Shown here: one piece after another, positions 42,705-51,099 of the stretch
Position numbering within the stretch: position 1 is the first letter of the stretch
How the letters are laid out: every line of letters starts with the position of its first letter
Source: Flavobacteriales bacterium
GTDB lineage: Bacteria; Bacteroidota; Bacteroidia; Flavobacteriales; Schleiferiaceae
Direction of reading: 5' to 3'
Assembly (NCBI GenBank): GCA_002707525.1
Contig: PAND01000004.1
Span: forward strand, 35,746 to 99,745
DNA length: 64,000 bases
Translations under genes and position numbers: made by a program
The notes under the pieces: generated by a model
What the model was told of the DNA's origin: nothing
The model's database searches: none
The model's input: only the letters and a program-made list of their open reading frames with translations

Positions 42705-44144
42705 ATGAAAATTGGAATTGATGCCATTTCATATTATGTACCCAATCATTACCTTCCTATTGAAGCCCTTGCAAAAGCGAGGAATATTGAATATGCTAAA
42801 TTAAATAAGGGACTAGGTCTAACCTCTATGTCTTTTCCTGATGTTGATGAGGACGCTGCCTCAATGGGGGCAAATGCAGTTTTAGATTTATTCCAAAGAG
42901 AGTCGCTCAATCCTTCAGATGTTGGTAGGATCTACCTTGGTACTGAAAGTGCTTTAGATAGTGCTAAACCCACAGCCACATACATTCTTGATTTAGTTGA
43001 AAAGGAATTAAGTACCGAATTTGGTCCTCGGTCATTAAAAAATACAGATGCTGTAGATATGACCTTCGCTTGCATTGGTGCTGTAGATGCCCTTGAAAAT
43101 GCATGCCTCTACCTTAAGCAAAATCCAGGTAAAAAAGCAATCATTGTGGCTTCAGATTTGGCAAAATACAATCTTGGATCTACTGGTGAATACACTCAAG
43201 GTGCTGGAGCTGTGGCTCTACTTATTTCAAAGGATCCAGCAATCATTTCATTAGGTTCAGAAATAGGCGTTGCAACAAAAGGAGAGCGAGATTTCTTTAA
43301 ACCGAGACGAACGCAAACGAAATCATCCGTTCTTGTACAAGCTGCACATCTACTAGGAATAAACCTCAATGAGGAAGAAGCTAAAACAAAACTACTAGAT
43401 GCAAAAGGGTTTTGGGGAGGTAACACCATGATAAGAACTTATCTTGAGGAACCTGTTTTTGACGGTCAATACAGCAATAGCGCATATATAGCCCGTATAA
43501 AAGAAGCATTAGAAGATTTCCAAAGTAAAATATCATTGAATCCAGCCTTGGATTGGGGCCGTGTTGTAATGCACCTACCTTATGCATTTCAAGGCAGACG
43601 CATGCTGGTAAATTTTTACCTTGACTGGATGCAAACGAATGGCAGATGGAATGAAGTAGTTGAGGCTGTTGGATCTGAAAAACCTGAAAATAAAGAGGAA
43701 TCAAAAAATTGGGTTAGAACCTTTAGTAAAAGTGACTATTATAAGGCATACGTTGACAAAGCGCTTGCGCCAGCCGAGCGTGCCTCAGGTTTGATTGGAA
43801 ACATGTACACCGCTTCCATATTTATGGGCCTGCTTAGTACTCTATGTGATGCTGCAGAAAAAGGAGATAATATTGAAGGTGTCTGCATAGGGTTCATGGG
43901 CTATGGCTCTGGCAGCAAGGCAAAAGTATTCCAAGGTTATGTGCAAAAAGGGTGGTCTAAAGTGGCTCAATTAAATCTTTTTGAAAGACTTAATCAACGG
44001 ACAGCAGTTGATTTTAACACCTACGAAAATTGGCACAACGAGCGTCTTTCTTTACCCATTCTTCCAAAGAAAAATGTTTTCGTTCTTGAGGGTCTAAGAA
44101 CAGAAGAGAATCAAGAGTTTTTCAGAGATTACAAAAGACAATAA
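42705..44144 (+). CDS. Hydroxymethylglutaryl-CoA synthase family protein
   Basis: 479 aa. A thiolase-fold enzyme joining acetyl-CoA and acetoacetyl-CoA to HMG-CoA, the entry to the mevalonate pathway used by Flavobacteriales for isoprenoids. MKIGIDAISYYVPNHYLP is at the N terminus, the catalytic Cys is in MTFACIGAVDALENA, and NTMIRTYLEEPVFDGQYS is in the C-terminal half. It is longer than the Gram-positive MvaS (about 390 aa) through its C-terminal half, which is usual in this phylum. It starts 132 bp after sufT and is followed 9 bp later by a DUF2480 gene. Confidence 0.9.
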   Translation: MKIGIDAISYYVPNHYLPIEALAKARNIEYAKLNKGLGLTSMSFPDVDEDAASMGANAVLDLFQRESLNPSDVGRIYLGTESALDSAKPTATYILDLVEKELSTEFGPRSLKNTDAVDMTFACIGAVDALENACLYLKQNPGKKAIIVASDLAKYNLGSTGEYTQGAGAVALLISKDPAIISLGSEIGVATKGERDFFKPRRTQTKSSVLVQAAHLLGINLNEEEAKTKLLDAKGFWGGNTMIRTYLEEPVFDGQYSNSAYIARIKEALEDFQSKISLNPALDWGRVVMHLPYAFQGRRMLVNFYLDWMQTNGRWNEVVEAVGSEKPENKEESKNWVRTFSKSDYYKAYVDKALAPAERASGLIGNMYTASIFMGLLSTLCDAAEKGDNIEGVCIGFMGYGSGSKAKVFQGYVQKGWSKVAQLNLFERLNQRTAVDFNTYENWHNERLSLPILPKKNVFVLEGLRTEENQEFFRDYKRQ

Positions 44145-44153
44145 TCTACGGTA

Positions 44154-44654
44154 ATGGCGAATCAGGAAATTGTAAATAAGGTAGCGCAAAGCTCATTAAT
44201 CACCTTTAACTTGGAGGATTATTTTCCAGCCAAGGTGACCGATTTGGACATCGCGCAATTCCTTGACAAGGGACTGCTTTTACGCGAAAAAGAATATCGA
44301 ACAGCGCTCAAAGAGGTTGACCACACTCCATTTAAAGACTCAGTTGTTCGTCTACATTGCTCTAGTGACGCGATTCTTCCAGCTTGGGCCTCCATTCTTG
44401 TTGCTGCAATATTAAGCGAACATGAAATTAATTGCTTCTGGGCAGGAACAGAAACCGAGTTCTATTCACAATATTACCGATGGAAATTATCCCAAGTGAA
44501 TTGGGACCAATTTAATGGGAAGCCCGTTATCATTAAGGGTTGTGGCAACTCAAAAATACCGCAAGATGCATATGTTCACGCAGCAGTAGCTCTTAAGAGG
44601 TTTGCCAAGAGAATAAGTTATGGCGAAGCATGTTCAGCTGTTCCCCTTAGATAA
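44154..44654 (+). CDS. DUF2480 family protein
   Basis: 166 aa, soluble, no signal peptide. It matches the DUF2480 family restricted to Bacteroidota: LITFNLEDYFPA near the N terminus, FKDSVVRLHCSSDAILPAWA in the middle and VIIKGCGNSKIPQDAYVHAA near the C terminus. Function unknown; the Cys-rich GCGNSKIP segment could bind a metal or cluster, but that is speculation. It follows the HMG-CoA synthase gene by 9 bp, and a terminator follows. Confidence 0.8.
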   Translation: MANQEIVNKVAQSSLITFNLEDYFPAKVTDLDIAQFLDKGLLLREKEYRTALKEVDHTPFKDSVVRLHCSSDAILPAWASILVAAILSEHEINCFWAGTETEFYSQYYRWKLSQVNWDQFNGKPVIIKGCGNSKIPQDAYVHAAVALKRFAKRISYGEACSAVPLR

Positions 44655-44693: not shown

Positions 44694-44765
44694 CATTTGC
44701 CACTGCTATCTGAAGGCTGACTTTTGAGCGCCACAAGAGTCAAAAGGATTAACTACCTTCATGTC

Positions 44766-45971
44766 ATGAATGTCAAAACAAGCGAAGTAAACGCGCTGAA
44801 ACTTCAAGGTATAGTTCCTTTTAATATCAATTTTGCGTTGTTAATACTCTTGAGCGCAGGAATACTGATGCATATCCTCTTGATCGGCATTTCTAATGGA
44901 GGTACGCTCATGGCAATTGCGCTTTTTTCGGTGATAATTGGGGGCGGTATAGCACGCCGAATTCATCCTTTAGCTGAGGCCTACTTTGAAACGATAGTTA
45001 TTTGTTTCCTCCTTTATAATTGTTATTATTTCTACGTTGACCTTAATATACTTCCTCTTGTTGGATTAGTTGCCATATTCGTTCAAAGGGTCACCATGTT
45101 CACTTTCAATTTTCGATATATTAGTTTAATATGGTCGATTGTTCTTTATATTCTGCCATTGGCCGTCGCGTCATTAGTAGTAATAGATATTTCACCTCGT
45201 TATCAAATACCATTGCCTAACACATATGAAATGAAGCTAGCAGGGGTTGGTATGCTTTTAATTTCAACTAGTATTTCATTTCAAACGGTTTTTTGGTTTA
45301 GAAAAACTATTAAAAACATTGAAAAGCGTGAATCAAAAGTCAAAGGCTCTTACAAACAAGTACTAGAACTGAATCAAATCTTAAGTCATAACCTAAGAAC
45401 ACCATTGGCCAACGCGCTGGGACAACTGGAAATTGCAGAAAGAACAGATAACTACAAAAAGTATGTCCATCAGGTTAAGAAAGCTCTAGTTGAAGTTACC
45501 GTACAAACATCTAGTGTTAATAACGCTAAAAAGGCGTTTGAAGGAACCAATAATGTTAATGAATTCCTCTTAAAGTGGAAGGAAGTTTACAAACACGAAT
45601 TAGTACAATTCCAATTTCTTGAAAACAAAATCAAATACGAAATGTCAGAAGAAGTTGCAATTGCTCTAGCGGTTTCATTTGATATTTTTGTAAAAAATTC
45701 TTTTGAGGCATCTGCAAATGAGGTAATTATAAAAGTGAAAGAAAAAGCATCTACACTTAAAATCGAGTTATTAGATAATGGCAAGGGAGCTTCACCTCAT
45801 ATCATTGAAATGTTCGGAAAACCTATGACGAGTTTGAAAGAGCACGGGACTGGAATAGGAACTTATCTTGCCCAAAGATTGCTTTTAAGCGCTGGTGTTC
45901 ATGTTAGTTTCTCCAATAGAGAAAATACATCAGGTTTTAAAGTCGGTATAGAGGTTTCACAGATGATTTAA
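44766..45971 (+). CDS. Membrane sensor histidine kinase (paralogue 1)
   Basis: 401 aa. Six N-terminal transmembrane helices (to about residue 180) without an extracellular domain, a short coiled linker, a dimerisation helix with the phospho-acceptor box SHNLRTPLA (His near residue 208), and a HATPase_c domain with N box KNSFEA, G1 LLDNGKGAS and G2 GTGIGTYLAQRLLL. The usual acidic residue after the His is Asn, as in some Bacteroidota kinases. No response regulator is nearby. It is closely similar to the kinase at 46763-47947. Start: ATG 44766, rather than the TTG at 44724. Confidence 0.85.
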   Translation: MNVKTSEVNALKLQGIVPFNINFALLILLSAGILMHILLIGISNGGTLMAIALFSVIIGGGIARRIHPLAEAYFETIVICFLLYNCYYFYVDLNILPLVGLVAIFVQRVTMFTFNFRYISLIWSIVLYILPLAVASLVVIDISPRYQIPLPNTYEMKLAGVGMLLISTSISFQTVFWFRKTIKNIEKRESKVKGSYKQVLELNQILSHNLRTPLANALGQLEIAERTDNYKKYVHQVKKALVEVTVQTSSVNNAKKAFEGTNNVNEFLLKWKEVYKHELVQFQFLENKIKYEMSEEVAIALAVSFDIFVKNSFEASANEVIIKVKEKASTLKIELLDNGKGASPHIIEMFGKPMTSLKEHGTGIGTYLAQRLLLSAGVHVSFSNRENTSGFKVGIEVSQMI

Positions 45972-46007
45972 TCTTTGTTTTTGCGCTAAAAGAAGCTTCA
46001 CTTCTAG

Positions 46008-46673
46008 TTACAATGTTACAGAAAAACCGATATTCTGGCTCGTGGCGGTTTCGAGTTCACTTGTGAGCACTCCTGAAGTAACAATTGGATTTAAACCGTA
46101 GTAATAATACAGGTTCAACGGTCCACGCCCGAATTTTACATATGTACCATATCTAAGTGTGCTAAATCCTCCTAGATTATAGAATTTAACCCGGTATATA
46201 TCTGAGTTGAAGTATGAATATGAATCAGCCAAGTAACCAATTACACCCCCAATATAAAGGCGCGTATACCTTCCCAAATTATTAGATGTAGATCTAAAGC
46301 GGAATTCAATTATACCATCTAAATACTCGGTTGCAAATCTGTTTGAGGCATATTCGCGGTCATTTATAAACCCTATTGATTGCGTTCCATCGGAATCTAC
46401 ATTGACATGCAGATTCCCGTGATAGAAATGTCCGCTGTATCCTATTCCATAAGCAACTCCAAAATGACTAAGTCCTAAATGATGTTCCCTCAGGAATTGC
46501 ATTTCTTGGGAGTTGGCTCGCCATGACGGTATGTAAGACGCATCTGCGCCAACAATCATTAACGAAGACGTATTAAAGGAAATTCCTTCTCCGCGTTCGG
46601 GGATAAATACTTTTTCCTGTGCCTTTGCAGAAAGTAACAAACATAAAAAAAGAGTGACAGCATTAAATTTCAT
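46008..46673 (-). CDS. Outer-membrane beta-barrel-like protein with signal peptide
   Basis: 221 aa. The N terminus MKFNAVTLFLCLLLSAKAQ is a clear signal peptide. The mature part alternates aromatic/Gly-rich strands, such as HFGVAYGIGYSGHFYHGNLHV, IEFRFRSTSNNLGRYTRLYIGG and LRYGTYVKFGRGPLNLYYYYG, and ends in a hydrophobic strand NIGFSVTL, typical of an eight-to-ten strand barrel. No family recognised with confidence (PorT-like barrels are a candidate). It is convergent with the upstream kinase and divergent from the downstream one, so it is flanked by two related kinases. Confidence 0.72.
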   Translation of the reverse strand: MKFNAVTLFLCLLLSAKAQEKVFIPERGEGISFNTSSLMIVGADASYIPSWRANSQEMQFLREHHLGLSHFGVAYGIGYSGHFYHGNLHVNVDSDGTQSIGFINDREYASNRFATEYLDGIIEFRFRSTSNNLGRYTRLYIGGVIGYLADSYSYFNSDIYRVKFYNLGGFSTLRYGTYVKFGRGPLNLYYYYGLNPIVTSGVLTSELETATSQNIGFSVTL

Positions 46674-46762
46674 AATATGTAGAAGCTAGTAAGAGTATCT
46701 CGCTATGAGTTAGTATTATTGTGTTTGTAGAGAATCAATGATTTTAAGAAGGTTAACATAAC

Positions 46763-47947
46763 ATGCAGCCCATAAATAACGTTTTATCATCATGGGACAC
46801 CACAGCTATGACTAAGACTCTTGTTATAGTTGGGGGTATTGTTTTCTCAATTTTGACTTATTTTGACATTTCACCTGGGGGTCTTTTACTTTCAAGCTGC
46901 TTATTAAGTGCCGCAATAATCAATCCATTAACCAAACGAATAAGTCCCGTTTTTGAGGCTTATGTAGATATTGGAACAATTTGTTTTTTCGCATACAACA
47001 GTTATTACTTTTATAAAGATATAAGCCTAATTCTCTTACTCGGTCTTACTGCTTTGTCCGTGATAAGAATAGTCATGCATAGTTTTGTTTTTCGCGGTAA
47101 AAAGCTCTTTTGGACGTTAGGACTTCACCTAATTCCGGTTTCCACAGCTATACTATTTGTGCTTAATATTGAACCTTTTTATTCCATACCCATACCTACA
47201 GAGCAAGAATTACTAGTAATAGGCACAACAACAATTATAGCATTTTCTTTATTATTTATTCAAACCATTGTTGCTTATGTAAACACTCTAAATTATATCG
47301 AATCCAGTAAAGAGGAGGTTTCCTATTCTTATAAACAGGTTCTCGAACTTAATCAGATATTAAACCATAACCTAAGAACTCCACTTGCTACTGCCTTAGG
47401 ACAATTGGAAATAGCTGAAATTCATCTTAAAGAAAATAAACATATTGCAAAAGCTAAAGAGGCTTTGAGTCTGGTGGTAAATCAAACTGCAAGTGTAAAT
47501 AATGCAAAAAAAGCTTTTTATCAGACTACATCGGTGATAGAATTTCTTACAAATTGGAAAGCTCTCTTCAATTATGAGATGGTTGATTTTGAACTTGTAA
47601 AAAATCGGGACAAATATTTATTGACAGAACAAGTAGCTATTGCATTGGCAGTGTCATTAGATGTTTTTAGCCAAAATTCAATAGATGCCAATGCAGATGA
47701 ATTACTGATGCGAATAGAAAGTAAACGCAACAGTCTTCGCATTGATATCACAGATAATGGAGACGGTGCCTCAGAGGAAACTATAGGTTTGTTAGGTAAA
47801 CCCATGACAAGCAGGAAAGAGCATGGGGCGGGTTTAGGAACCTACCTTGCTCAAAGGCTTATAGTTAGTTCGGGAGGTAAGGTTTATTTTTCAAACAGAA
47901 AAAGAGAGAAAGGTTTTAGAGTGATTATAGAAATTTTACCTCGTTAG
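46763..47947 (+). CDS. Membrane sensor histidine kinase (paralogue 2)
   Basis: 394 aa. The same plan as the kinase at 44766-45971: six hydrophobic helices, a linker, the acceptor box NHNLRTPLATALGQLEIAE (His near residue 202), and HATPase_c with SQNSIDA, ITDNGDGAS and GAGLGTYLAQRLIV. Nearly identical boxes (YKQVLELNQIL, ASVNNAKKAF, GKPMTSRKEHG) mark a recent duplication. Start: the ATG at 46763 (MQPINNVL), or the ATG at 46808. There is no receiver domain in the window. Confidence 0.85.
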   Translation: MQPINNVLSSWDTTAMTKTLVIVGGIVFSILTYFDISPGGLLLSSCLLSAAIINPLTKRISPVFEAYVDIGTICFFAYNSYYFYKDISLILLLGLTALSVIRIVMHSFVFRGKKLFWTLGLHLIPVSTAILFVLNIEPFYSIPIPTEQELLVIGTTTIIAFSLLFIQTIVAYVNTLNYIESSKEEVSYSYKQVLELNQILNHNLRTPLATALGQLEIAEIHLKENKHIAKAKEALSLVVNQTASVNNAKKAFYQTTSVIEFLTNWKALFNYEMVDFELVKNRDKYLLTEQVAIALAVSLDVFSQNSIDANADELLMRIESKRNSLRIDITDNGDGASEETIGLLGKPMTSRKEHGAGLGTYLAQRLIVSSGGKVYFSNRKREKGFRVIIEILPR

Positions 47948-47962
47948 ATAGCTTTTATTCCA

Positions 47963-48736
47963 TTATTTAATACTGAGGTGAATTGGCGCAAAACCTTCCA
48001 TTACCAACCTGATATCATCTCCTTGTTCTACGGATAACATTGGCCCTAAAGCGCCCGATAAAAGCACTTCGCCTTTATGAAGGACCTCTCCTTGGGAGCA
48101 CATTTTCTGTGCAAGCCATAGCGCAGCATTTAATGGATTATCCATGCACGCTCTGCCATTCCCTTGACTACAGATTTCTCCGTTTTTATATAGAGCTATT
48201 GAAACATTTGCGGGATTCAATTCTTCAATTGTTTTAGAGTCATCCCCTAATATAAAGTGCGATCCTGAAGCATTGTCCGCAATCGTATCCGAAATCTGAA
48301 TATCCCAATCTTCCACTCTTGAATCTACAATCTCAATAGACGCCTTGACCTCAGCTATTGCGTCCACCAAAATATCCATACTTAGATTATTACTAGTAAT
48401 ATCCTTACCCAAAATAAATGCCAATTCTCCCTCTACTTTAGGAAGTATGAGCCTTGAGCTGTCTATGCTCTTAGAATTAGAAACATCCATGGTATCAAAT
48501 AAAATCCCATAATCTGGTTGATCAACGCCAAGCTGTCTCTGAACCGCAAAGGATGTAAGACCTATCTTCTTACCTACTACCTTTTCACCTCTTGCTTTAC
48601 GCAAACCAACAAGCTCTTTTTGAATGGTATAAGCGGCATCAATGTCGTTATTGATGAGGCCTCTTAGTGGGCTTATGCTTTGTCCTGAATTTAACGCGTC
48701 AAACAATTGTTTGCCGAGGTCTTGATACAATGACAT
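47963..48736 (-). CDS. 2-keto-4-pentenoate hydratase/4-oxalocrotonate decarboxylase family protein
   Basis: 257 aa. FAH-superfamily enzyme of the MhpD/DmpE/XylI type: GKKIGLTSFAVQRQLGVDQPDYGILFDTM, the metal-site Glu in LPKVEGELAFILG and the Glu in EVKASIEIVDSRVEDW. Either hydrates 2-oxopent-4-enoate or decarboxylates 4-oxalocrotonate in meta-cleavage of aromatic rings. The ATG at 48736 (MSLYQDLGK) gives the family length; an earlier start is unsupported. It is divergent from the homogentisate operon across 71 bp and converges on the kinase with a 15-bp gap. Confidence 0.82.
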   Translation of the reverse strand: MSLYQDLGKQLFDALNSGQSISPLRGLINNDIDAAYTIQKELVGLRKARGEKVVGKKIGLTSFAVQRQLGVDQPDYGILFDTMDVSNSKSIDSSRLILPKVEGELAFILGKDITSNNLSMDILVDAIAEVKASIEIVDSRVEDWDIQISDTIADNASGSHFILGDDSKTIEELNPANVSIALYKNGEICSQGNGRACMDNPLNAALWLAQKMCSQGEVLHKGEVLLSGALGPMLSVEQGDDIRLVMEGFAPIHLSIK

Positions 48737-48766
48737 TTGTAAGGATTTAACTCCTCTAAAGTAGTG

Positions 48767-48774
48767 TATATTTG
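48767..48774 (+). promoter_or_regulatory. Promoter -7 box for hmgA-hppD-fahA
   Basis: TATATTTG matches TAnnTTTG, 33 bp before the hmgA ATG, in the 71-bp divergent spacer. No -33 box at standard spacing. Confidence 0.5.
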
Positions 48775-48807
48775 TAGGGAACCTGCACAAACTAAAGAGT
48801 CATTCCT

Positions 48808-49965
48808 ATGCCGTTTTATCAAAAGCAAGGACAATTCCCTCATAAGCGCCACACTCAATTTCGTAAAGAAAACGGCAGCTTGTTTCATGAAGAACTATTT
48901 GGAACTATTGGCTTTGACGGTATGTCGTCATTGTTATATCATGTTCATCCACCTACAATGGTCAAAGAAGTTGGGTTGAGTAGCAGTATAGCGCCAAAAA
49001 TCGCAGTAGATACAAACATGAAGGCATACAGGTTCAAAGGATTTGATGTCAAACCTGCTGAGGATTATTTAGAAAGTCGTGTTCCTGTGCTCACCAATAA
49101 AGACTGTACCATTTCATTAGCAGCACCAACCTCTTCAATGAGCAAGTACTTTTATAAAAATGCACAAAATGATGAAGTTGTTTTTGTGCACGAAGGAAGC
49201 GGTACGTTAAAAACTCAATTTGGAGATTTAGTTTTTAAGGATGGTGACTATCTGGTCATCCCTAGAGGGATGATACAACAGTTCCAATTCACAGACTCTA
49301 ATAATAGGTTATTAATAATAGAAAGCAGTCATCCAATCTATACACCAAAGCGATATCGCAATTGGTTTGGACAATTACTTGAGCATAGCCCCTATTGTGA
49401 ACGTGATATTCGAACGCCTGAACTAACACCGGCCAAGGATGAAATAGGCGATTTCACCATCAAAGTAAAAAAAGAAGAAATGTTGCATTCATATATGTAT
49501 GCCACACACCCTTTTGATGTAGTTGGATGGGACGGATTTAACTATCCCTATGCATTTAGCATTCATGACTTTGAACCTATTACAGGCAGAGTTCACCAAC
49601 CCCCGCCCGTACATCAAACATTTGAGACAAAAGCTTTTGTGATTTGTTCATTTGTACCTAGACTATACGATTACCATCCGCAATCCATACCGGCTCCATA
49701 CAATCATAGTAATATTGATTCAGATGAAGTACTCTACTATGTAGACGGTGATTTTATGTCGCGAAACAATATTGGAAGAGGACAGATCACTCTTCATCCC
49801 TCAGGGATACCGCATGGTCCGCATCCTGGAACCTATGAGGCAAGTATTGGGAAAAAAGAAACCTTAGAACTAGCCGTAATGGTGGACACATTTGCACCTT
49901 TAAAAATCACTGAACAAGCCCTTAACTTGGATGCCGGTGACTATCATAAGAGTTGGATTAAATAA
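48808..49965 (+). CDS. hmgA: Homogentisate 1,2-dioxygenase
   Basis: 385 aa. Opens the ring of homogentisate to maleylacetoacetate with a non-heme Fe(II). Cupin fold; the metal region has HSNIDSDEVLYYVDGDFM and HPSGIPHGPHPG, holding His and Glu ligands at the C-terminal domain, and VHQPPPVHQTFE upstream. It is of the shorter type (about 385 aa) compared with the 430-440 aa proteobacterial and human enzymes. It begins an operon with hppD and fahA. The ATG at 48808 is chosen. Confidence 0.9.
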   Translation: MPFYQKQGQFPHKRHTQFRKENGSLFHEELFGTIGFDGMSSLLYHVHPPTMVKEVGLSSSIAPKIAVDTNMKAYRFKGFDVKPAEDYLESRVPVLTNKDCTISLAAPTSSMSKYFYKNAQNDEVVFVHEGSGTLKTQFGDLVFKDGDYLVIPRGMIQQFQFTDSNNRLLIIESSHPIYTPKRYRNWFGQLLEHSPYCERDIRTPELTPAKDEIGDFTIKVKKEEMLHSYMYATHPFDVVGWDGFNYPYAFSIHDFEPITGRVHQPPPVHQTFETKAFVICSFVPRLYDYHPQSIPAPYNHSNIDSDEVLYYVDGDFMSRNNIGRGQITLHPSGIPHGPHPGTYEASIGKKETLELAVMVDTFAPLKITEQALNLDAGDYHKSWIK

Positions 49966-49974
49966 CCTATCAGA

Positions 49975-51099
49975 ATGACAAACATATTGCCCAAACAATA
50001 CACAGATGCTAAAGATTTCCTGGAGCTTTGGGGCACCGACCACGTGGAAATTTATGTAGGAAACGCGAAGCAAAGCGCCTATTACTTTAAAACTGCTTTT
50101 GGTTTTCAGGAAGTAGCGTATGCCGGATTAGAAACAGGTGTAACAGACCGTACCTCATATGTGCTTCAACAAGATAAAATCCGATTGGTCATTACCTCTT
50201 CTTTGGTAAAAGACAGCACCATAAATGAGCACCTAAACGAGCACGGCGACGGAGTAAAAATTGTTGCGCTCTGGGTACCCGATGCAACAAAGGCATTTAG
50301 CGAGACAACCTCCCGAGGGGCTCGTCCTTACCAAAAACCACAGGTTATTGAAGATACAAATGGAAAAGTAGTAACCTCAGGAATTTACACCTATGGAGAA
50401 ACCATTCATTTGTTTGTTGAACGGGATGACTACAAAGGACCTTTTCTTCCCGGCTATGTTGCACGCAAACCTCAATACCAACCTTCAGGCGTAGGATTAA
50501 AATACATAGACCATATGGTGGGTAATGTAGATTGGGGACAAATGAATACCTGGGTAAAATTCTATGCAGAAGTCATGGGGTTTTCACAAATCATCTCGTT
50601 TGATGATAAAGATATCTCTACGGAATATACTGCACTAATGTCCAAGGTAATGTCCAATGGCAATGGTAGAATTAAGTTTCCTATAAATGAACCGGCAGAA
50701 GGGAAAAAACGTTCTCAAATTGAAGAGTATATTGACTTTTACAATGGTGCTGGAGTGCAACATTTAGCGCTTGCAACTGATAATATCATACATACCATTC
50801 ACGAACTTCGTGCAAGAGGTGTTGAATTTTTAGACGTCCCGGATACATATTATAATGACTTGAAAGACCGAGTCGGTGCTATAGAGGAGGATATGGAAGT
50901 CCTCAAGAAATATAAGATTCTCGTGGACCGAGATGATGAAGGGTATTTGTTACAACTATTTACAAGACCTCTAATGGATAGACCAACAGTCTTTATTGAA
51001 ATCATTCAACGAAAAGGCGCAACAAGTTTTGGAAAAGGTAATTTCAAAGCACTATTTGAGGCTATTGAAAGAGAACAAGAACAAAGAGGTACACTTTAA
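49975..51099 (+). CDS. hppD: 4-Hydroxyphenylpyruvate dioxygenase
   Basis: 374 aa. Turns 4-hydroxyphenylpyruvate into homogentisate. Two VOC domains: the first from TDHVEIYVGNAKQSAYYFKT, the second with the iron ligands His in YIDHMVGNVDWGQMN, His in GVQHLALATDN and Glu in VFIEIIQRKGATSFGKGNFKAL. The C-terminal helix that gates the active site is present. Gap to hmgA is 9 bp. Confidence 0.96.
   Translation: MTNILPKQYTDAKDFLELWGTDHVEIYVGNAKQSAYYFKTAFGFQEVAYAGLETGVTDRTSYVLQQDKIRLVITSSLVKDSTINEHLNEHGDGVKIVALWVPDATKAFSETTSRGARPYQKPQVIEDTNGKVVTSGIYTYGETIHLFVERDDYKGPFLPGYVARKPQYQPSGVGLKYIDHMVGNVDWGQMNTWVKFYAEVMGFSQIISFDDKDISTEYTALMSKVMSNGNGRIKFPINEPAEGKKRSQIEEYIDFYNGAGVQHLALATDNIIHTIHELRARGVEFLDVPDTYYNDLKDRVGAIEEDMEVLKKYKILVDRDDEGYLLQLFTRPLMDRPTVFIEIIQRKGATSFGKGNFKALFEAIEREQEQRGTL

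Follow-up and report, generated by a model that had tools for sequence, protein, structure and literature searches.

In a few uncultured Bacteroidota, related histidine kinases are placed on either side of an older gene for a probable outer-membrane protein. We analysed such a locus in a 64-kb stretch of DNA (hereafter the window; G000:C11:35746-99745) from a 2.1-Mb genome (G000; 28 contigs, 91% complete), in which two kinases, designated HK1 and HK2, are duplicated around a fixed barrel gene and belong to an orphan, membrane-embedded kinase family with an H-N acceptor box. The duplication itself we regard as close to certain. We further propose, at about even odds (roughly 50%) for the chain as a whole, that HK1 and HK2 are lineage-specific duplicates around the older barrel gene whose membrane helices would sense a signal and whose catalytic cores would phosphorylate a shared receiver linked to kdsB.

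Two kinases duplicated around an older barrel gene

The kinase-barrel-kinase stretch sits between a DUF2480 gene and a FAA-hydrolase-family gene, as judged from the open reading frames of the window and Pfam matches (Table 1). The layout first read from the letters alone, two duplicated kinases flanking an outer-membrane protein gene on the opposite strand, holds with its coordinates, and both kinases are intact paralogues with 174 of 372 aligned residues identical (47%, E 5e-112). The start of HK1 is ATG 44766, with V-M at 44763 and the longest listed frame running from TTG 44724. The best HK1/HK2 stretch, SYKQVLELNQIL.HNLRTPLA.ALGQLEIAE, is identical at 29 of 31 positions; the near-identity noticed in the sequence-only reading is real, but it lies at the start of the phosphoacceptor helix and not in a linker, where that reading had placed it. 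Its remark that no receiver-domain gene lies nearby also stands, a receiver-domain profile having found none within the 64-kb window.

Table 1 Features of the kinase-barrel-kinase locus, in window positions.
Feature	Position	Strand	Basis
DUF2480 gene; constant left-hand neighbour of the barrel gene in kinase-less genomes	44154..44654	+	Pfam, genus locus comparison
HK1, orphan multi-TM histidine kinase, ~401 aa	44766..45971	+	ORF, HATPase_c, paralogy with HK2, dN/dS
HK1 acceptor box HNLRTPLA	45387..45410	+	alignment; residue 209 with numbering from 44763
Outer-membrane beta-barrel-like protein, 221 aa; genus-conserved independently of the kinases	46008..46673	-	homologues
Intergenic region of 89 bases separating the divergently transcribed barrel and HK2 genes	46674..46762	.	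coordinates; G012 and G009 likewise have a divergent barrel/kinase pair
HK2, orphan histidine kinase with six predicted TM helices, 394 aa	46763..47947	+	ORF, HATPase_c, AF2 model, core matches histidine kinase structures
HK2 membrane part, residues 13 to ~172, six predicted helices	46799..47278	+	DSSP on AF2 model
HK2 acceptor box HNLRTPLA (H202, N203, T206)	47366..47389	+	alignment, DNA box pattern
FAA-hydrolase-family gene; adjoins the barrel gene on the right in kinase-less genomes	47963..48790	-	Pfam, genus loci

Two further observations concern the surrounding genes. An HMG-CoA synthase-like gene (42705-44144), together with mevalonate kinase- and diphosphomevalonate decarboxylase-like genes named by eye elsewhere in the same genome (L112:4070-6014), possibly makes up a mevalonate pathway in a Bacteroidota genome. 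The FAA-hydrolase-family gene is followed by HmgA-like and HPPD-like genes, both named by eye, in a tyrosine/homogentisate breakdown cluster (47963-51099).

Across the genus (25 genomes, G000 and 24 sister genomes), the barrel gene is present in 22 of the 24 sisters, whereas only G012 and G009 have close kinases at that locus. The neighbourhood SUF-HMGCS-DUF2480-barrel-FAAH-HmgA is found without kinases at nine further genus loci visible on both flanks (L081-L088 and L090; L089 and L091 are cut and show the DUF2480 side only). These kinase-less loci run from DUF2480 through the barrel gene and two polyamine-type genes, or nothing, to FAAH, which lies within ~20 bases of the barrel gene in G004, G017 and G019, and no kinase remnant was detected at E ≤ 1e-3 in any of the 12 loci searched (L081-L091 plus L070). 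Conservation of the gene order in relatives, a check suggested with the original reading, extends only so far: kinase-barrel-kinase was seen only in G000 and, in exactly the window's order, in G012, and G009 is rearranged, with barrel, kinase, a 94-aa gene, decayed genes, a second kinase and FAAH in that order. In these three genomes the divergent barrel/kinase pair shares a region of ~90-140 bases. The decayed genes between the two G009 kinases (L080:10249-11350) are arginine-decarboxylase-like and deoxyhypusine-synthase-like by eye, and are intact in G016 and G020.

In the kinase tree, HK1 and HK2 are sisters and the two kinases of the G009 locus branch next, giving the topology (G009 second, (G009 first, (HK1 pair, HK2 pair))) with support of 98-100%. 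The tree indicates that an older kinase at the site duplicated in the G000/G012 lineage and that the copies came to flank the barrel gene; together with the neighbourhood conserved without kinases, it bears out the original proposal of duplication around a fixed barrel gene. A search of 395 genomes of the order at E ≤ 1e-25 gave close relatives of HK1/HK2 in 3, all within this genus (named records with such relatives are PXYR01000005.1 and JAAXJR010000029.1). The wider family has at least four members in G000, three in G012 and nine in G009, and paralogues at other loci have no barrel gene beside them. The kinases thus partly scatter without a barrel gene, an outcome that the sequence-only reading had named as counting against it, and most of the genus retains the barrel gene without kinases.

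The middle gene probably encodes an outer-membrane or envelope protein. Its opposite strand and its N-terminal signal-peptide-like helix are as first described; its identity as a barrel is indirect, and the name 'outer-membrane beta-barrel' rests on homology because PF13568 (OMP_b-brl_2) matches 12 of 17 barrel homologues and not the window's own copy. A profile search found no solved relative, and an AF2 model built on three sequences reached a mean pLDDT of 31.

Membrane architecture and the H-N acceptor box

In the AF2 model of HK2 (mean pLDDT 68.7), six predicted membrane helices (residues 13-33, 38-60, 62-84, 89-109, 115-133 and 147 onward) are joined by short loops with no periplasmic domain; helix 6 runs into the acceptor helix and continues to residue 221, so that its membrane end (~172) is an estimate, and pLDDT is low around the acceptor box. 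The model agrees with the six-helix sensor lacking a periplasmic domain that had been predicted from the letters, and a plain hydropathy scan gives four strong windows in each of HK1 and HK2. The accompanying idea of sensing by membrane helices is matched by the modelled HK2 architecture, and the helices may act as the sensor. A fold search with HK2, which covered mainly the core, matches histidine kinase structures, and the best solved sequence for the kinase family profile is the core of sporulation kinase B (3d36, E 8.5e-22).

HATPase_c is found in HK1 and HK2 (33.9 and 43.5 bits; Pfam cut-off 26.4) and in 17 of 17 kinase family members at E ≤ 0.01. HisKA (PF00512) scores 24.5 and 16.6 bits in the two kinases, below its cut-off of 26.9, and matches 14 of the 17 at the same threshold. 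HK2 carries T206 at H+4, N305 in the N-box, D331-N-G333-x-G335, G357 and G359, with the same set in HK1; the alignments retain the His, N-box, G1 and G2 in both, and in three other members of the family the H+4 residue is Ser. Against the G012 orthologues, dN/dS is ~0.21 for HK1 and ~0.20 for HK2, compared with 0.09 for the barrel gene and 0.03 for HmgA, all rough values since dS between G000 and G012 is near or above 1. With intact catalytic boxes and a dN/dS of ~0.2, neither kinase looks degenerate, and the degenerate copy that had been raised as a threat to the original reading is rejected. The two kinases nevertheless diverge faster than neighbouring genes, with 66-69% versus 77-95% identity to G012.

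A RegB-type redox sensor was considered and rejected. The best NCBIfam match by E-value is NF033792 (ActS/PrrB/RegB), but the likeness to these redox kinases spans the catalytic core only, and the scores of 38.1 and 45.1 bits fall far under the cut-off of 350.

Asn follows the phosphoacceptor His in all 17 family members (H202-N203, HK2 numbering), in place of the acidic residue in the consensus H-E/D-x-x-T/N given in the accessible part of PMC3510030, and we therefore describe the kinases as HisKA-like, HN variant. According to the same part of that source, the residue after His must be acidic for kinase activity in characterised HisKA kinases, and CrdS E372A/D/G/Q are kinase-dead and phosphatase-competent, HK853-E261A behaving alike.

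Within the 25 genus genomes, the family profile (A3; 17 members, one non-kinase row of alignment A1 having been left out) reaches the membrane part only in G000, G012, G009 and G007, the four genomes from whose members it was built and which it therefore favours. For the remaining 21, every one among the matches listed begins at profile position 177 or later; some weaker matches are other kinases, such as an HD-box one. At E ≤ 1e-20 the profile also finds matches in 48 of 394 other genomes of the class; the HN box is absent from all 22 parsed class loci matching A3, several of which (L212, L225 and L234) combine six hydrophobic segments with an HDLRAP box.

An HN box unique to the HK1/HK2 family was a notion overturned by a class-wide search for its DNA pattern, which occurs at 58 places in 39 of 295 Bacteroidia genomes (reversed control, 6 among the matches listed). 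The acceptor box first called unusual thus deviates from the H-E/D consensus, yet it is frequent among Bacteroidia. A frame with the HN box and both ATP boxes intact is encoded at 21 of the 29 foreign loci examined (22 of 30 counting the window's own), and the acceptor boxes of 51 frames in fetched loci divide into HE 28, HN 12, HQ 10 and HD 1. The other Bacteroidia HN-box kinases share the HN[LI]R.P.A box, intact ATP boxes and single-domain receiver neighbours, but in most of them the box is preceded by few membrane segments or none. Receivers flank (within ~1.5 kb) 10 of 25 foreign HN loci (30 loci less four without a long open frame and the window's own; four of those kept have incomplete boxes), all single-domain in frames of 94-165 aa, and 8 of 22 HD/HE loci (29 less seven without a parsed kinase), all of 226-263 aa. 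Single-domain receivers thus account for 10/10 on the HN side versus 0/8 on the HD/HE side (Fisher p 2e-5, relatedness ignored). In a tree, the HN-side receivers form their own clade apart from the kdsB-linked candidate described below, so that the pairing supports the kind of partner and not the candidate's identity.

Our literature search returned no apt report of orphan-kinase/single-domain-receiver pairs in Bacteroidetes, or of HNLR boxes or six-helix kinases there; orphan kinases as such are present in many marine bacteria, according to the accessible part of PMC6365647. As a separate observation, G009 holds a phytochrome-like 1308-aa kinase (by eye; L102:9477-13759) whose acceptor box is of the HQ type; a small receiver adjoins it, and two HN kinases are close by.

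A candidate receiver at kdsB

Among the 14 receiver matches in G000, the likely, though still putative, partner of the HN kinases, as judged from its distribution, is a single-domain protein of 124 aa, encoded by a gene that overlaps the kdsB start (G000:C1:61665-62024). It occurs in 4 of the 25 genus genomes at E ≤ 1e-30, with 87-88% identity in the other three, and these are the same four that hold the HN kinase family; in each, its gene overlaps kdsB (named by eye) and has a J-domain-like gene as its other neighbour. The search for a distant shared receiver by co-occurrence, as the sequence-only reading had advised, thus yielded a candidate. The next-best receiver matches in the order, from seven genomes, are 40-45% identical and sit in larger open frames.

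The candidate leaves no trace in G004, G017, G019 (77% complete) and G021, though the kdsB neighbourhood is kept, and in the kdsB neighbourhood of G003 (86% complete) the receiver and the J-domain-like gene are both missing. At the kdsB locus of G011 (90% complete) we found a decayed receiver remnant (L197:1315-1480) with a local DNA score of 93.5, compared with a mean of 47.8 and a maximum of 66.5 in 200 shuffles. Because the G003 barrel gene abuts DUF2480, HK1 is absent there; the FAAH side of that locus is cut by a contig end. A four-protein tree joins G003 to G012 (99) and the G017 group to G009/G007 (70), and a 12-protein tree without G003 and G007 places G009 beside the G017 group (100). 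Combined with the absences, these trees indicate that two separate branches within the clade, as well as G011, lack both receiver and kinases.

Receivers of 130, 287 and 680 aa were set aside as partners: they have close relatives in G009 and G007, and they fit the kinases less well because none is among the matches listed for G012. Photolyase/cryptochrome-like genes, named by eye, stand beside the 287-aa receiver in G000 and G009 (L109:9388-13480 and L131:3662-7797). Two other single-domain receivers of the same genome, of 122 and 114 aa, stay in consideration as alternative partners. Conversely, an orphan HD-box kinase (G000:C12, G012:C105, G009:C16 and G007:C109; loci L178:5630-6919, L179, L185 and L187) shares the four-genome distribution of the receiver and the HN family and could be an alternative partner of the receiver, as a possible phosphodonor.

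Proposed circuit and its alternatives

In the mechanism we propose, the six helices would respond to a signal within or at the inner membrane, which would alter the six-helix bundle; the cytoplasmic core would autophosphorylate H202 (HK2 numbering) and phosphorylate, or dephosphorylate, the shared single-domain receiver overlapping kdsB, which would then relay the phosphoryl group or act by binding. The duplication, the insertion around the barrel gene, the intact cores, the six-helix model of HK2 and the joint distribution of kinase family and receiver are what the data show; the phosphotransfer partner, the membrane signal and any envelope role are what we infer. Counting against the chain are the HD-box kinase of identical distribution, the 122- and 114-aa receivers, the separate clade of receivers next to HN kinases elsewhere, the Asn where characterised HisKA kinases require an acidic residue, the incompleteness of the genomes and a kinase profile built from the four genomes themselves. 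By analogy, the arrangement would best be read as a circuit like those of Spo0F or MrrA, in which several kinases act on one shared single-domain receiver. According to the accessible part of PMC6011975, Bacillus subtilis KinB has six membrane domains and no separate extracellular one, as in the HK2 model, and sporulation kinases feed the relay protein Spo0F; here the receiver link is proposed from co-distribution. HK1 and HK2 further differ from KinB in having no sporulation context, in carrying Asn for the acidic H+1 residue and in a sequence likeness limited to the catalytic core. In Caulobacter, several kinases act on the single-domain receiver MrrA (accessible part of PMC5964349), the same logic as proposed here, but those kinases are HWE/HisKA2 rather than HisKA-like HN kinases and MrrA is a FATGUY-type receiver. 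We assign the HK1/HK2 system to neither.

The sequence-only reading had also suggested a sensory unit of kinases and barrel, and in such an envelope-sensing unit the barrel would detect an outer-membrane signal and the flanking kinases would read the barrel. A probable envelope protein whose gene diverges from that of HK2, or its G009 counterpart, across a shared region in three genomes would suit this arrangement; against it stand the barrel-less paralogues, the different G009 arrangement and the scarcity of close kinases at a locus that nearly all sister genomes retain. Because the barrel gene is kept without kinases in most of the genus, we reject the unit as the default reading and consider it very improbable.

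The HN family could instead be biased towards phosphatase activity, autophosphorylating poorly and using Thr at H+4 to remove phosphoryl groups that another kinase has placed on a receiver. The invariant H202-N203, the CrdS and HK853 variants reported in the accessible part of PMC3510030 and the HD-type kinase of the same distribution, which could serve as phosphodonor, all fit such a bias. The N-box, G1 and G2 are conserved, however, so that ATP binding is probably kept, and the frequency of HN boxes with intact ATP boxes in Bacteroidia, some of them adjoined by receivers, suggests a working variant; we think the bias unlikely. Similarly doubtful is a family expanded by drift in a few lineages, each copy with a different receiver or none, whose joint distribution with the receiver would reflect shared ancestry only. 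That the HD kinase occurs in the same four genomes, and that the kinases diverge faster than their neighbours, would be expected under drift, but the dN/dS values argue for function, and both the joint absences on separate branches and the receiver remnant in G011, where the kinases are gone, count against it. We thus prefer lineage-specific duplicates that would report to the kdsB-linked receiver. A broader claim, that a changing set of Bacteroidota membrane HN kinases reports to one single-domain receiver encoded across the edge of the LPS-precursor gene kdsB and forms an unrecognised many-to-one envelope circuit, its kinases working without the acidic residue regarded as necessary for autophosphorylation, is put forward tentatively, as a possibility with the odds against it.

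HK1 and HK2 are a lineage-specific orphan kinase pair made of ordinary parts, interesting for the partner candidate and for a common, unexplained acceptor-box variant. Orphan kinases are hard to match to receivers, and here joint absence across a genus with small genomes and a decaying receiver gene at its locus point to a concrete putative partner. The frequency of the HN box in Bacteroidia offers a natural test of the claimed need for an acidic residue in HisKA kinases, and a link between HN kinases and single-domain receivers would give a useful pairing rule for the class.
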